From Sphingomonadales bacterium 39-57-19 (GTDB lineage Bacteria > Pseudomonadota > Alphaproteobacteria > Sphingomonadales > Sphingomonadaceae), in contig NCJG01000001.1 of NCBI GenBank assembly GCA_002282385.1, positions 558,001 through 622,000 on the forward strand: a stretch of 64,000 nt of DNA, given 5' to 3'. The position numbers were made by a program, and so were the translations under genes. Of the stretch, positions 54,489 to 61,346 are shown one piece after another (positions within the stretch are counted from its first letter, which is position 1; each line of letters opens with the position of its first letter). The notes under the pieces are model-generated. The model made no database searches and had not been told where the DNA came from. It was given only the letters and a program-made list of their open reading frames with translations.

Positions 54489-55697
54489 ATGCACACGCTA
54501 TCTGCCAGCGAACGACAGGCGCTTGAAACCATAGAGCAACCACCTATGCTTGGCCAAGTCCAGAACTGGGCCGCGATCAACAGCGGCTCGGGCAATCTTG
54601 ACGGCCTTGCCACCATTGCCGGTTTGCTCGCGGACGCATTCTCGGCCCTGCCTGGCGAAGTAACACTGGTTGAGCCCGAACCTGTGGATCGCGTACTATC
54701 CGACGGAACGGTGACCACAGTGGCGCATGGGCGGCATTTGCTGATGACGGTTCGCCCGGAATGTCGGGCACAATTGCTGTTTACCGGACATATGGACACC
54801 GTGTTTCCGGCAGACCACAGTTTTCAGACATTGCGCTGGCTTGACGATGGCACGCTAAATGGCCCCGGTGTGGCCGACATGAAGGGCGGCATTGCCGTGA
54901 TGCTCGCCGCTTTGAAGGCGGCGGAATCGTCGGGAAAACTCGCACAAACGGGATACCAGATACTCATCAACAGCGATGAAGAGGTTGGCTCGCCATCATC
55001 CGCAAAATTGATCGCACAGCTTGCGCAGAATAAGCTTGCTGCGCTCACTTATGAACCCGCATTGCCCGACGGTACGCTGGCGGGTGAGCGTGGTGGCAGC
55101 GGTAATTTCTCCATCATCATTTCGGGCAAATCGGCGCATGCGGGCCGGAACCCCGACGATGGACGCAACGCGCTTTTGGCGGCGGCCGACCTTGCGCTGC
55201 GGCTCAAGCAACTGTCGCGCGAAGGCCTGTCGGTGAACCCCGCCAAAATTGACGGTGGCGGTCCCAATAATGTTGTGCCCGATCGTGCGATATTGCGGGT
55301 AAACTTTCGGCCGCGCACGCCAGAGATTGTGCAGCAGACTGACGTAGACCTCCGCAGGGTTATTGCCGACATAGAACATGAACATGATGTGCGTGCACAT
55401 CTGCACGGCAGTTTCGGTCGCCCGCCAAAGCCCATTGATGACGAGGCCGCGAAGCTTTTCGGCTTGGTTAAGCAATGCGGGGCTGATCTGGGCATCCCAG
55501 TCGCATGGCGTTCAAGCGGCGGCGTATGTGACGGCAACAATATCGCCGCCTGCGGCGTCCCCGTTGTCGATACGATGGGCGTACGCGGGGGCAGCATCCA
55601 CAGTTCCGATGAATTCCTCATCGTCGAAAGTTTGGTCGAACGCGCCCAATTATCGGCGCTGACGATTATGCGCTTATCAGAAAAAGGGACTTTATGA
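54489..55697 (+). CDS. M20 family amidohydrolase, carboxypeptidase G2-like, in operon with astA-astB
   Basis: 402 residues. The two-zinc M20 motifs are present: LLFTGHMDTVFPADH (His101, Asp103), GPGVADMKGG (Asp130), NSDEEVGSP (catalytic Glu164 and ligand Glu165), YEPALP and a late GGSIHSSDEF His. A lid/dimer domain fills about 205-315 (SGKSAHAGRNPDDGRNALL). Closest character is the CPG2/ArgE group, which splits N-acyl amino acids, notably N-acylglutamates. No signal peptide. Its stop overlaps astA (ATGA) and astB follows two bases after astA. An enzyme releasing succinate from N2-succinylglutamate is needed at the end of that pathway, and AstE is not seen here, so it may do that job; this is inference. 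Confidence 0.83.
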   Translation: MHTLSASERQALETIEQPPMLGQVQNWAAINSGSGNLDGLATIAGLLADAFSALPGEVTLVEPEPVDRVLSDGTVTTVAHGRHLLMTVRPECRAQLLFTGHMDTVFPADHSFQTLRWLDDGTLNGPGVADMKGGIAVMLAALKAAESSGKLAQTGYQILINSDEEVGSPSSAKLIAQLAQNKLAALTYEPALPDGTLAGERGGSGNFSIIISGKSAHAGRNPDDGRNALLAAADLALRLKQLSREGLSVNPAKIDGGGPNNVVPDRAILRVNFRPRTPEIVQQTDVDLRRVIADIEHEHDVRAHLHGSFGRPPKPIDDEAAKLFGLVKQCGADLGIPVAWRSSGGVCDGNNIAACGVPVVDTMGVRGGSIHSSDEFLIVESLVERAQLSALTIMRLSEKGTL

Positions 55698-56725
55698 CCT
55701 TCATCATCCGTCCGGCAAATATGGACGATCTTCAGCCAATATATGAAATGGCCAAAAGGACAGGCGGCGGGTTCACCAATCTGCCACCTGACCGGAAGGC
55801 TCTGACCCAAAAGCTGGAGCGGTCAGCCGCTGGCTTTGACCGCGTGGGTGAGGAAGTCGCCGACGATTTATATGTTTTCGTTCTGCAAAATACCGCGACA
55901 GGCGAAGTGCGCGGCACATGCCAGATATTTGGCAAAGTTGGCCAAAAATGGCCGTTCTACAGCTATCGCATTGGCGCGCTGACGCAGCATAGCGTTGAAC
56001 TTGAGAGGACATTTCGGGCGGACATCCTTAACCTGTCAACGGACCTGGAAGGCGCGACCGAAGTCGGTGGATTGTTCCTGCATCCCGGCGAGCGGGCTGG
56101 CGGGCTTGGCATGCTGATTGCGCGCAGCCGATATTTGTTCATTCGCAACCACCGTGCGAGATTTGCCGACCGTACAATCGCAGAATTGCGTGGCGTCATC
56201 GACGAAGCTGGCGGATCGCCGTTTTGGGACGGTGTCGCTGGCCGCTTTTTCGGCATGAGCTTTCAGGAAGCAGATGAATTTAACGCTAAATTCGGCAACC
56301 AGTTTATCGCAGATCTCATGCCGAAGCATCCTGTTTACATTGCCATGCTTCCCGACAGTGCAAAGACCGTCATCGGCGTGCCGCATCCTTCAGGCCGCGC
56401 TGCCATGCGTATGCTTGAGAACGAAGGATTTGCATGGGAAAATTACATCGATATCTTTGACGGCGGCCCGACGATGACCGCGCGTACAGATCAAATCCGC
56501 AGCATCCGTGACGCGAAAGACGTCATAATAACTGCCGTCAGCGATGACGTTGGCGAACATAAATCAGGTCATAAAAAACTGATAACGCTGGGCCGTCTAC
56601 ATGCGTTTAAAGCCGCCTATGGCTGGATCGATGATCAAGGCGATAACGTCATTATCGACAGCAATTGTGCGCGTGCCTTGGGTATTTCAGCAAGCGATGC
56701 TGTAACCTATGTCGAGCGCGCTTGA
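55694..56725 (+). CDS. astA: arginine N-succinyltransferase
   Basis: 343 residues. FIIRPANMDDLQPIYEMAKR and TGGGFTNLPPDR at the N-terminus, the acetyltransferase-like middle with GGLFLHPGERAGGLGMLIAR, and ELRGVIDEAGGSPFWDGVAGRF are typical of AstA (PF04958). It makes N2-succinylarginine from arginine and succinyl-CoA, the first step of the AST pathway. It overlaps the M20 gene and precedes astB. In the AST pathway the next genes astC, astD and astE are not in this window. Confidence 0.94.
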   Translation: MTFIIRPANMDDLQPIYEMAKRTGGGFTNLPPDRKALTQKLERSAAGFDRVGEEVADDLYVFVLQNTATGEVRGTCQIFGKVGQKWPFYSYRIGALTQHSVELERTFRADILNLSTDLEGATEVGGLFLHPGERAGGLGMLIARSRYLFIRNHRARFADRTIAELRGVIDEAGGSPFWDGVAGRFFGMSFQEADEFNAKFGNQFIADLMPKHPVYIAMLPDSAKTVIGVPHPSGRAAMRMLENEGFAWENYIDIFDGGPTMTARTDQIRSIRDAKDVIITAVSDDVGEHKSGHKKLITLGRLHAFKAAYGWIDDQGDNVIIDSNCARALGISASDAVTYVERA

Positions 56726-56727
56726 TC

Positions 56728-57981
56728 ATGGCTTTGATCGAAATAAACTTTGATGGCATTATTGGGCCAAGCCATAATTACGCAGGATTGAGCGTTGGCA
56801 ACCTGGCATCATCACACAATGCCGGCGCCCCGTCTTATCCAAAGGCTGCTGCCCTGCAGGGCATCGAAAAAATGCGCGCGAACCTGCGCCTTGGATTGGC
56901 GCAGGGTTTCTTCATGCCGCTCGACCGGCCGAACCAAAATTGGCTTTCCGGACTTTCGACCGACATGCAATCGGCGGAACCGCATATCCGCGCCGCCGCT
57001 TTTTCGGCGTCGGCCATGTGGGCAGCCAATGCAGCGACCGTCTCGCCAGCGCCCGATACGGCTGATGGCAGATGTCATCTGTCTGCGGCGAACCTGCTGA
57101 CGATGGCGCACCGCAGCCATGAATGGACCGGAACGCTTGCGCAGTTAAAACTGGCATTTGCCGATGACGCACATTTTGCCGTGCACGGGCCCGTTCCTGC
57201 GCCGTTTGGCGACGAAGGTGCGGCAAACTTCATGCGCCTGTGCCGAACGCACGGGGACGCTGGCATTGAGATATTTGTCTATGGCAAGTCAGGCGGTCCA
57301 TTCCCTGCCCGTCAGCATATTGAGGCATCGAAAGCCATTGCGCGGGCACATCGGCTAGATGCAGCCAAAACATTGTTCGTTCAACAATCCGAGATCGCGA
57401 TTGCCGCTGGCGCGTTCCACAATGACGTCGTTGCCGTGGCCAATGAACATGTGCTCTTCACCCATGAGCAGGCGTTTGAACATCCCGAGCAAACCTACGC
57501 CGATATCAAGCGGCTGTTGCCCGAGGCGGAGATCATCATTGTGCCTGCCGACCGGGTCAGCCTTGCCGATGCGATCCAAAGCTATTTGTTCAATGCGCAG
57601 TTGGTGACGCTACCCGACGGCGGCATGGCGCTTATCTTGCCGAGCGAAGCACAGGACAATGCGCGCGTTTGGGGCTGGCTTAGCGAGATGGTCGCGGGCA
57701 ATGGCCCCATTCGCAAGCTCGTCCCCGTGGATGTGCGCCAATCGATGGCCAATGGCGGCGGCCCTGCCTGTTTGCGGCTGCGCGTGGTTGCAGATCCCGC
57801 CACAGTCGATCCGCGCTTCATCGCCAATGAGGCAAAGCTCGACCAGATTGCGCACGTGGTTGCTACATATTGGCCAGAATCGATTGTGCCGGACCAATTG
57901 GGCGATGTGTCACTGATTGATCAGGTACGCGCGGCGCGCATGGCACTGTTAACCACGTGCGATCTAACCGTGCTCGTATAA
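56728..57981 (+). CDS. astB: N-succinylarginine dihydrolase
   Basis: 417 residues from the ATG two bases after the astA stop; the frame is open earlier inside astA. The fold is a guanidino-modifying enzyme. Characteristic segments: NFDGIIGPSHNYAGLSVGN, the Glu region GDEGAANFMRL, the catalytic His in GAFHNDVVAV and the nucleophile Cys in NGGGPACLRLRV. It hydrolyses succinylarginine to succinylornithine, ammonia and CO2. Operon M20-astA-astB. Confidence 0.95.
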   Translation: MALIEINFDGIIGPSHNYAGLSVGNLASSHNAGAPSYPKAAALQGIEKMRANLRLGLAQGFFMPLDRPNQNWLSGLSTDMQSAEPHIRAAAFSASAMWAANAATVSPAPDTADGRCHLSAANLLTMAHRSHEWTGTLAQLKLAFADDAHFAVHGPVPAPFGDEGAANFMRLCRTHGDAGIEIFVYGKSGGPFPARQHIEASKAIARAHRLDAAKTLFVQQSEIAIAAGAFHNDVVAVANEHVLFTHEQAFEHPEQTYADIKRLLPEAEIIIVPADRVSLADAIQSYLFNAQLVTLPDGGMALILPSEAQDNARVWGWLSEMVAGNGPIRKLVPVDVRQSMANGGGPACLRLRVVADPATVDPRFIANEAKLDQIAHVVATYWPESIVPDQLGDVSLIDQVRAARMALLTTCDLTVLV

Positions 57982-58802: not shown

Positions 58803-59135
58803 TTAAAGACCCTGCATATTTCGGCTCTCCGCCGGAATATGGACCACCAGTCCGTCGAGATCCGGTGTCAGCACGATTTGGCAAGACAGACGACTGGTGC
58901 GCCGCGCACCGGTAGCAAGGTCGAGCATGTCTTCCTCGTCCTCAACCGATCGGGGGAGCTTGTCGAACCAAAGCTTGTCAATGATCACATGGCAGGTTGA
59001 ACAGGCCATTTGCCCCTCGCACGTGCCTTCCAGCGGTTGTCCTGCGGCTTGGGCAATCTCCAACAGGCGTTGGCCTTCCAAGGCTTCCACGTCCTGGACA
59101 GTGCCATCGGCAGTGATGAACGTGACTTTGATCAT
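58803..59135 (-). CDS. fdx: 2Fe-2S ferredoxin, Isc/adrenodoxin type
   Basis: 110 residues. The cluster cysteines are C39, C45, C48 and C85 (CEGQMACSTCH and SRLSCQ), the spacing of the adrenodoxin-type [2Fe-2S] ferredoxins that donate electrons in Fe-S cluster assembly or to P450-like enzymes. It overlaps the upstream cysteine desulfurase gene by four bases (ATGA), so a role with that enzyme is likely. It is immediately upstream of ssrA. Confidence 0.92.
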   Translation of the reverse strand: MIKVTFITADGTVQDVEALEGQRLLEIAQAAGQPLEGTCEGQMACSTCHVIIDKLWFDKLPRSVEDEEDMLDLATGARRTSRLSCQIVLTPDLDGLVVHIPAESRNMQGL

Positions 59136-60196
59136 AGCATCGCCTCTGCTGACCGGTTGATTGCATCTGCGGCCATATCAATCTCTTCCTCCGTCGTATA
59201 GCGGCCAAAACCCAAACGGATGGATGATTTCGCCTGTGCGTCAGTAAGGCCAAGCGCGCGCAACACATGGCTGGGGCGGCCAGAACCACTGGCGCAAGCC
59301 GATCCAGCGGAAAAGGCGATGTTCCGGCACTCCGATATCAACCGCGCGGCATCGACGCCGTCGCGGCGGATGTTGAGATTGCCTTTGTAGCGTTGTGCCG
59401 TCGAACCATTGATGGTCCAGTTCGCAAATGCACTGGCGGCGCGGTCCCATAAGGCAGAAACATGCATGGCGTCCGCGTCCATGCGCTCTGCCGCCAACTT
59501 GGCGGCTGCACCAAATCCAGCGCACAAAGCGGGCGACAATGTGCCCGATCGCATGCCTTGTTCCTGACCACCGCCAAGCATTTGCGGGGTGAGCGCGATG
59601 TCGTCGCGCACCCACAAGGCGCCAATGCCCTTTGGACCGTGGATTTTATGCGCGGATATGGCGATCATATCCGGACCATCGGGGATCGGCATGCGTCCAA
59701 ATGCCTGAACTGCGTCGCATAGGAACAGATTGCCTTGGGCGTGTGCGGCCCCTGCCAGCTCAGCGATAGGCTGGATGGTCCCAATCTCATTATTGACCAG
59801 CATGGTGGCAGTTAACGCCTGCCCGCAAACGGAACCAGCCGATTGCATTTCGGGACGAATTAAGCCCGAAGCGTCGACGGGGAAAGTCCGCCCATTTCGA
59901 AATTCCACAACGTCCAAAACCGCAGCATGTTCCGTGGCCGCAGCGGTGACGGTTAACCCGCATCCCATGATGGCCAGATTGATCGCCTCGGTCGCGCCAG
60001 AGGTAAAGATCACGCGCCCGCCCTTCGGCAGCAGCGCCGCGATTTGATCGCGGGCAACCTCAACAGCCGCAGCTGCCGCCCTGCCCGCTGCATGCGCGCT
60101 ATGCGGGTTGGCAAATCCATCCTTCAGCCAAGGCTCCATCGCGGCAAATGCCTCTGGGGCCAGCGGCGTTGTGGCTTGGTAATCGAGGTAGATCAT
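59132..60196 (-). CDS. cysteine desulfurase, NifS/IscS-like (first copy)
   Basis: 354 residues from MIYLDYQATTPLAPEA; the frame extends 56 codons further into the upstream gene and was rejected. PLP-binding Lys184 in SAHKIHGPKG, His in ATEHAAVL and catalytic Cys301 in SAGSACASGSGRPSHV are all present. It takes sulfur from cysteine as an enzyme-bound persulfide. The start overlaps the stop of a second, related desulfurase gene. The lack of IscU/IscA/HscAB genes around it sets it apart from standard isc operons; the SUF route could use these enzymes. Its partner is probably the ferredoxin downstream. Confidence 0.9.
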   Translation of the reverse strand: MIYLDYQATTPLAPEAFAAMEPWLKDGFANPHSAHAAGRAAAAAVEVARDQIAALLPKGGRVIFTSGATEAINLAIMGCGLTVTAAATEHAAVLDVVEFRNGRTFPVDASGLIRPEMQSAGSVCGQALTATMLVNNEIGTIQPIAELAGAAHAQGNLFLCDAVQAFGRMPIPDGPDMIAISAHKIHGPKGIGALWVRDDIALTPQMLGGGQEQGMRSGTLSPALCAGFGAAAKLAAERMDADAMHVSALWDRAASAFANWTINGSTAQRYKGNLNIRRDGVDAARLISECRNIAFSAGSACASGSGRPSHVLRALGLTDAQAKSSIRLGFGRYTTEEEIDMAADAINRSAEAML

Positions 60197-61233
60197 GCAG
60201 CTTTGGCGCGGATGACGATATTGCGCCAGACGTCTAAAAACCGTGCGACATCTTTTTCGCTGGTATCCGCGCTGAAACTGACACGGACGACTTCCGAGGC
60301 GGATCGTTCGTCCCAACCCATTGCGCCAAGCACATGGCTGGTTTTCAGCGTTCCTGATGAACACGCGCTTCCTGCAGAGACCGCAATGCCCGCCATATCA
60401 AAGTTGATAAGCTGACTTGAGGCCGCAACGCCGGGCATGCGGTAGCTGGCGATGGTCGCAAGGCGGCTGCTTGCTTCTGCAACCACGATGCCGCCGCTGG
60501 CAGTGATTTCGGCATCCAACATGTCGCGCAGCCGAGCGGCTTTTTCCATCCACGCAAAACCAGCATCGAGGGCAGTCGCAAATCCGAGTGCAGCGGGCAA
60601 GTTTTCGGTGCCGCGCCGGTACCCTTGTTCCTGCCCACCTGTCGGCGTCAGCAGCCCAAGGTTGCGGACGAGCAAAGCGCCCATTCCCGGCGGCCCGCCC
60701 AATTTATGCGCTGACACGCACATCAAATCAGCATCGGGCAATGGCAATTTGCCCGCGCTTTGCGAACAATCGGCAAACAATAGTCCGCCATTGGCCCGCA
60801 CAATATCGGCGATCTCCGCCATCGGTTGCATAACGCCGGTTTCGTTGTTCACGGACTGCACCGCATAGCGGGCAGCGCCTTTAATCGCGTTCAGGTCAAC
60901 ATAACCGTCTGGACCGACGGGCAAGCGGGTTGCACCAGCTACAGCCAAAACCGCATCATGTTCAACGGCGCTTGCCATCACATCATGGCCTCGCAGCGCA
61001 ATCGCAATCGCCTCGCTTGCGCCGCTGGTAAAAATGACTTCACCATCCCAATTCAGCGCAGCCGCAACGCGCGTGCGGGCGTTCTCCAACGCCGCGCGGG
61101 CGGAGCGGCCTTCGCTATGCGGAGAGGATGGATTGGCCCATCGCGCCATCGCGTCGGCCATCGCTTCGCGCGCCGCCGGAATGACCGGCGTCGTCGCTGC
61201 GTGATCCAAATATATGCGGGCTTGGTCGGGCAT
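60193..61233 (-). CDS. cysteine desulfurase, NifS/IscS-like (second copy)
   Basis: 346 residues from MPDQARIYLDHAATTPV; ATG codons at 61242 and 61263 are also in frame and cannot be excluded. PLP-Lys177 in SAHKLGGPPG, His92 in AVEHDAV and Cys291 in SAGSACSSGTLKTSHV are kept, so it looks active. It overlaps the next desulfurase gene (ATGA) and is thus in one operon with it and with fdx. The two copies share fold and motifs but differ in most of the sequence, so they are an old duplication or different subfamilies, not a recent tandem copy. It is divergent from the alpha/beta hydrolase gene. Confidence 0.88.
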   Translation of the reverse strand: MPDQARIYLDHAATTPVIPAAREAMADAMARWANPSSPHSEGRSARAALENARTRVAAALNWDGEVIFTSGASEAIAIALRGHDVMASAVEHDAVLAVAGATRLPVGPDGYVDLNAIKGAARYAVQSVNNETGVMQPMAEIADIVRANGGLLFADCSQSAGKLPLPDADLMCVSAHKLGGPPGMGALLVRNLGLLTPTGGQEQGYRRGTENLPAALGFATALDAGFAWMEKAARLRDMLDAEITASGGIVVAEASSRLATIASYRMPGVAASSQLINFDMAGIAVSAGSACSSGTLKTSHVLGAMGWDERSASEVVRVSFSADTSEKDVARFLDVWRNIVIRAKAA

Positions 61234-61346
61234 AATTTCCATGACAGTTGCGAAAATCGTCACTGCTTCTATATAGCTCTACGAAATCCTGCAAAGCCCG
61301 AACCGTCGGGCAAAGCTCGGCACCCATCTAAGAATCGAACAATAAT

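Follow-up and report, generated by a model that had tools for sequence, protein, structure and literature searches.

An M20 amidohydrolase encoded with astA and astB in Sphingomonadales, a probable replacement for AstE

We have analyzed a stretch of 64,000 nucleotides (the window) from the genome of Sphingomonadales bacterium 39-57-19. It contains three adjoining genes: a gene coding for an M20 amidohydrolase, followed by astA and astB, two genes of the arginine succinyltransferase (AST) pathway. Their features are collected in Table 1. The ATG of astA, at 55694, shares the tetranucleotide ATGA with the TGA of the M20 gene, as read from the sequence. The stop codon of astA is the TGA at 56723–56725, the next two bases are TC and the ATG of astB follows at 56728. 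The overlap and the two-base spacing given in a preliminary description of this DNA are confirmed by the open reading frame coordinates. We propose that the M20 enzyme carries out the last step of the pathway in place of AstE, an enzyme of the M14 type.

Table 1. Features of the M20-astA-astB locus (positions in the window)
Feature	Position	Strand	Remarks
M20 amidohydrolase gene, PRK07338/NF005602 family	54489..55697	+	402 aa; proposed N2-succinylglutamate desuccinylase, AstE analogue
His101 codon, predicted zinc ligand, motif GHMDTV	54789..54791	+	invariant; aligns with carboxypeptidase G2
Asp130 codon, predicted bridging zinc ligand, motif GPGVADMKGG	54876..54878	+	invariant; aligns with carboxypeptidase G2
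Glu164 (predicted general base) and Glu165 (predicted zinc ligand) codons, motif DEE	54978..54983	+	invariant; aligns with carboxypeptidase G2
Glu189 codon, predicted zinc ligand, motif YEP	55053..55055	+	invariant; aligns with carboxypeptidase G2
His371 codon, predicted zinc ligand, motif IHS	55599..55601	+	invariant; aligns with carboxypeptidase G2
astA, arginine N-succinyltransferase (AOST subfamily)	55694..56725	+	Pfam AstA, TIGR03243; ATGA overlap with M20 gene
astB, N-succinylarginine dihydrolase	56728..57981	+	Pfam AstB, PRK13281

The AstA protein matches Pfam AstA with 423 bits and the AOST subfamily model TIGR03243 with 347 bits (cut-off 284). The AstB protein matches Pfam AstB with 565 bits and PRK13281 with 526 bits (cut-off 452). 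Both fall below the stricter equivalog models, AstA with 301.5 against a cut-off of 391 for TIGR03244, AstB with 413 against 538 for TIGR03241. These equivalog cut-offs are trained on classical members.

The M20 protein belongs to the NCBIfam family NF005602/PRK07338, with 571 bits (cut-off 357) over residues 4–399, which correspond to positions 3–402 of the 409 in the profile. This family is catalogued, it is named only "hydrolase" and has no functional name. The scores of the model in 144 Alphaproteobacteria are bimodal, members are above 550 bits and all others below 260. The next-best NCBIfam model for the protein is the glutamate carboxypeptidase PRK06133, with 207 bits. The cut-offs of the ArgE and DapE models are missed by far: 92 against 218 bits for the subfamily model, 62 against 298 for AcOrn-deacetyl and 63 against 362 for dapE_proteo. 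No homology to M14-type AstE (TIGR03242) is found in the family scans, which match M20-type families and, weakly, M28 only.

Pfam recognizes two domains, Peptidase_M20 and M20_dimer. H101, D130, E164, E165, E189 and H371 are the same in all family members compared, 40 from Sphingomonadales and 20 from a diverse set. From its residues, the protein is predicted to be a dinuclear zinc enzyme of the M20 clan, with the ligands H, D, E, E and H, the catalytic E and the dimerization domain. A two-zinc enzyme similar to carboxypeptidase G2 had been suggested before; the conserved ligands, the Pfam domains and the match to carboxypeptidase G2 agree with this. Five basic residues (R201, R220, R274, R311 and K314) are also invariant in the 20 diverse members, and a plausible guess is that they bind the three carboxylates of N2-succinylglutamate. 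An AlphaFold2 model of the protein has a predicted local distance difference test (pLDDT) value of 94.8. Its best fold match in the PDB is carboxypeptidase G2, with a template modeling score (TM) of about 0.8 and 26% identity, followed by tripeptidases and DapE.

The gene neighborhood is well conserved. Among GTDB representatives, 80 loci with a gene for a close relative of the M20 protein were found, and almost all carry the name of Sphingomonadales. In all 80 astA comes directly after the M20 gene, and in 70 astB is also next. The pairing of M20 and astA is neither due to chance nor specific to one strain. Among the ten loci without an adjoining astB, one stops at a contig edge and nine are Sphingomonas-like (L079, L084, L085, L088, L090, L095, L120, L122 and L129; handles with L denote loci, those with G genomes and those with C contigs).

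In Sphingomonadaceae, the family of the window's genome, the operon is usually just M20-astA-astB; some members have astD-M20-astA-astB or nearby orders. In many genomes of the family astD lies apart from the operon, within the conserved neighborhood selO-astD-cobA-cysI. Larger operons are found elsewhere: astC-M20-astA-astD-astB in two genomes of other families (G141/L057 and G419/L196), M20-astA-astD-astB in L056, L193, L198, L202 and L211, and astC-M20-astD-astB in G486/L194, with astA about 0.6 Mb away. Operons of the astC-M20-astA-astD-astB type carry no gene for AstE. For comparison, a genome of the AstE type (G398/L209) has astC-astA-astD-astB-astE. When 120 genomes of the window's family are considered, 108 have both M20 and AstD, five have neither, six have AstD only and the window's genome alone has M20 without AstD. 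M20 is thus present in 109 genomes and AstD in 114.

AstE and PRK07338 exclude each other among genomes with AstA. We have searched 397 Pseudomonadota genomes for AstA, AstE and PRK07338. AstA is found in 133, of which 88 also have AstE, 42 have PRK07338, none has both and three have neither (G094, G534 and G599). All 42 genomes with PRK07338 have AstA and lack AstE, and PRK07338 never appears without AstA. AstE without AstA is found in a single genome, G481. Fisher's exact test for this exclusion among the genomes with AstA gives 2e-31, a value to be read with the shared ancestry of the genomes in mind. In an independent draw, the 144 Alphaproteobacteria mentioned above, AstA is found in seven genomes, AstE over the cut-off in none, and PRK07338 lies directly beside astA in five. 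Caulobacter vibrioides, which served as a control, has AstA, AstD and PRK07338 and lacks AstE.

A tree of 67 AstA sequences contains an almost pure AstE clade, surrounded by genomes with PRK07338. Each switch between the two enzymes has been kept over long spans. One genome with PRK07338, G486, has an AstA that nests inside the AstE clade with moderate support (83/79); here the M20 enzyme may have taken the place of AstE only recently.

These results suggest the following pathway. AstA would form N2-succinylarginine from arginine and succinyl-CoA, and AstB would convert it to N2-succinylornithine, with removal of two NH3 and CO2. A transaminase, AstC or ArgD, and then the dehydrogenase AstD would give N2-succinylglutamate, which the M20 enzyme would hydrolyze to succinate and L-glutamate. 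Since PRK07338 is found only where the AST pathway is present, and never with AstE, it very probably catalyzes the last step. The presence of AstC or ArgD together with AstD means that the pathway delivers N2-succinylglutamate, and genomes with PRK07338 contain no other known enzyme for this compound. It is therefore quite probable that the function of the family is that of a dinuclear-zinc N2-succinylglutamate desuccinylase, which replaces M14-type AstE. The preliminary description had already proposed such a replacement; gene content and operon structure support it, and from them we infer the substrate and the reaction.

The catalytic mechanism can be predicted from what is known of the M20 clan and from the conserved residues. 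Two zinc ions would be held by His101, Asp130, Glu165, Glu189 and His371, and bridged by a water molecule. This water, activated by Glu164, would attack the succinyl amide, with the assistance of His217 from the partner subunit.

The window's own genome (2.31 Mb in 20 contigs, 99.99% complete) is an unusual case. Models PF04952 and TIGR03242 find no AstE in it, which rules out a true AstE hidden outside the window. No AstC is over the cut-off; the sole ArgD-like transaminase close to AstC is part of an argD-argF pair (L051/L061) and is a possible AstC. The best match to AstD reaches 232 bits, where the cut-off is 579. All eight matches to the AstD model are aldehyde dehydrogenases, and each one scanned was recognized as another or a generic type of this superfamily. 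The AST set recognized in this genome is thus incomplete: AstA and AstB are present, AstD is absent. An assembly gap is ruled out as the cause. Three relatives (L229, L230 and L231) retain selO-astD-cobA-cysI. In this genome (G000), contig C16 runs through the syntenic junction of selO and cobA outside the window (L247:16446-19050); about 175 bases separate the two genes and astD is missing, so the gene has been cleanly deleted. The only remnant in between is the neighborhood of the astD stop codon. The closest relatives, L063, L064 and L066, come from genomes without an AstD match, as does L068; the genomes of L065 and L067 have one. The three genes of the locus remain under purifying selection. 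When the window is compared with L063, the ratio of nonsynonymous to synonymous substitution rates (dN/dS) is 0.056 for M20, 0.033 for astA and 0.086 for astB; the control gene ksgA gives 0.028.

The proposed replacement is supported by comparative genomics, and several points weigh against it. The AstE and PRK07338 labels need at least four changes in the AstA tree, so the exclusion rests on few independent switches and the probability given by Fisher's test overstates independence. Four genomes with AstA have neither enzyme over both surveys: The three mentioned above and G099. Their ast genes appear as astC-astA in G094 (L059) and G599 (L204), astA-astD in G534 (L203) and astA-astD-astB in G099 (L060). 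Therefore, in such genomes either the pathway lacks its last step or a third enzyme catalyzes it. Finally, with astD lost, the recognizable genes of the window's genome do not provide N2-succinylglutamate via AstD. In this lineage, either another dehydrogenase replaces AstD, with SSADH-like enzymes on contig C18 (C18:114346-115680 and C18:75071-76384) as candidates, or the M20 enzyme also desuccinylates N2-succinylornithine.

The latter possibility may be extended to the whole family. The M20 enzyme would then be an ArgE-like N2-succinylornithine desuccinylase and, together with AstA and AstB, would convert arginine to ornithine, two NH3 and CO2 without AstC, AstD or AstE. We favored such a shunt at first, when AstC and AstD were not found over the cut-off in the window's genome, and dropped it as a family-wide function because AstD is present in most genomes of the family, usually with M20. 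The three-gene operon usual in Sphingomonadaceae fits the shunt, as does the selection acting on M20, astA and astB in the genome which has lost astD, with no AstD match in four relatives; furthermore, the M20 enzyme ArgE takes an acyl group off ornithine. On the other hand, 108 of the 109 genomes of the family with M20 have AstD, and in many lineages AstD, sometimes also AstC, is encoded in the same operon. With succinylornithine as the substrate, these genes would be unnecessary in the operon, and the genomes would have no means to process N2-succinylglutamate. In both sequence and fold, the protein resembles glutamate carboxypeptidase more than ArgE or DapE. We consider this explanation unlikely for the family; it may hold only in the lineage of the window which lacks astD, or describe an additional reaction of an AstE-like enzyme. 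The preliminary description had mentioned, as a fallback, that the enzyme might strip another acyl arginine intermediate: This idea survives for that lineage, with N2-succinylornithine as the candidate, and is set aside for the family as a whole. In the small-genome, Sphingorhabdus-like lineage without astD, the three genes might form a self-sufficient shunt from arginine to ornithine through succinylated intermediates, with M20 acting on N2-succinylornithine, a suggestion which is somewhat less doubtful but still improbable. If true, this route would be equivalent to arginase plus urease; to our knowledge, it has not been described before.

It is also conceivable that the role of the M20 enzyme lies outside the AST pathway and that its gene is found in this operon by coincidence; it might then be, for example, the ArgE of arginine biosynthesis, a peptidase or a hydrolase of folates or N-acylglutamates. 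M20 enzymes are diverse and PRK07338 has no assigned function. This is nevertheless very unlikely, as the family never occurs without AstA in the 397 genomes and adjoins astA in every one of the 80 loci; a general peptidase or ArgE would neither track AstA nor exclude AstE. ArgE itself is rejected on the same grounds, and by scores far under the cut-offs of the corresponding models. Even less credible is a role in the salvage of misdirected acyl products, such as wrongly succinylated amino acids, with a hidden enzyme in charge of the AstE step. The four AstA genomes with neither enzyme do indicate that another last-step enzyme may exist, but such salvage would require a hidden AstE substitute in all 42 genomes with PRK07338, and would leave the exclusion unexplained.

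The replacement of AstE by the M20 enzyme would close an apparent gap in arginine catabolism, the absence of AstE, in bacteria with PRK07338. It would be a non-orthologous replacement by a protein with a different fold, and it provides a testable function for an unnamed enzyme family which is near-universal in Sphingomonadaceae and also present in Caulobacter. The lineage which has kept M20, astA and astB without astD is a natural experiment on the substrate range of the enzyme. We have found no description of PRK07338, or of an M20 replacement for AstE, in open-access full texts, and a prior description elsewhere, including the supplements of fitness studies, is possible. Two papers in which catabolic and biosynthetic gaps were filled by mutant fitness (PMC9007349 and PMC7311316) do not mention PRK07338 in their main texts. 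What is proposed here is a non-orthologous last enzyme for a known pathway, from a family already catalogued.

Elsewhere in the window, at 58803–61263 on the minus strand, there are two tandem overlapping genes for class-V aminotransferases (cysteine desulfurase-like), upstream of a 2Fe-2S ferredoxin gene, as judged by eye from the translations only.

The closest known systems may now be compared. PRK07338 is proposed to share its reaction and pathway step with AstE/AruE, the N2-succinylglutamate desuccinylase of the M14 type (TIGR03242). Both are found in ast operons, and AstE, like PRK07338, is restricted to genomes with AstA, apart from G481. Fold and family are unrelated, PRK07338 being an M20 enzyme with a dimerization domain, and the two never share a genome. 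Carboxypeptidase G2 (PDB 1cg2 and 6xj5) is the best solved relative of the M20 protein: The profile match has an E value of 3e-45, and the zinc ligands are the same. It differs in sequence, with only about 26% identity, and lies outside ast operons. Its substrates are folates and methotrexate; it cuts the acyl-NH-glutamate bond and releases glutamate, which is the chemistry needed for the last AST step. ArgE (N-acetylornithine deacetylase) and DapE (succinyl-diaminopimelate desuccinylase) belong to the same clan and have the same zinc site, but their matches are weaker (92 bits with the subfamily model, lower TM-scores) and their position in metabolism is different. Each of them resembles the proposed enzyme in one respect: DapE takes off a succinyl group, and ArgE works on acylated ornithine.

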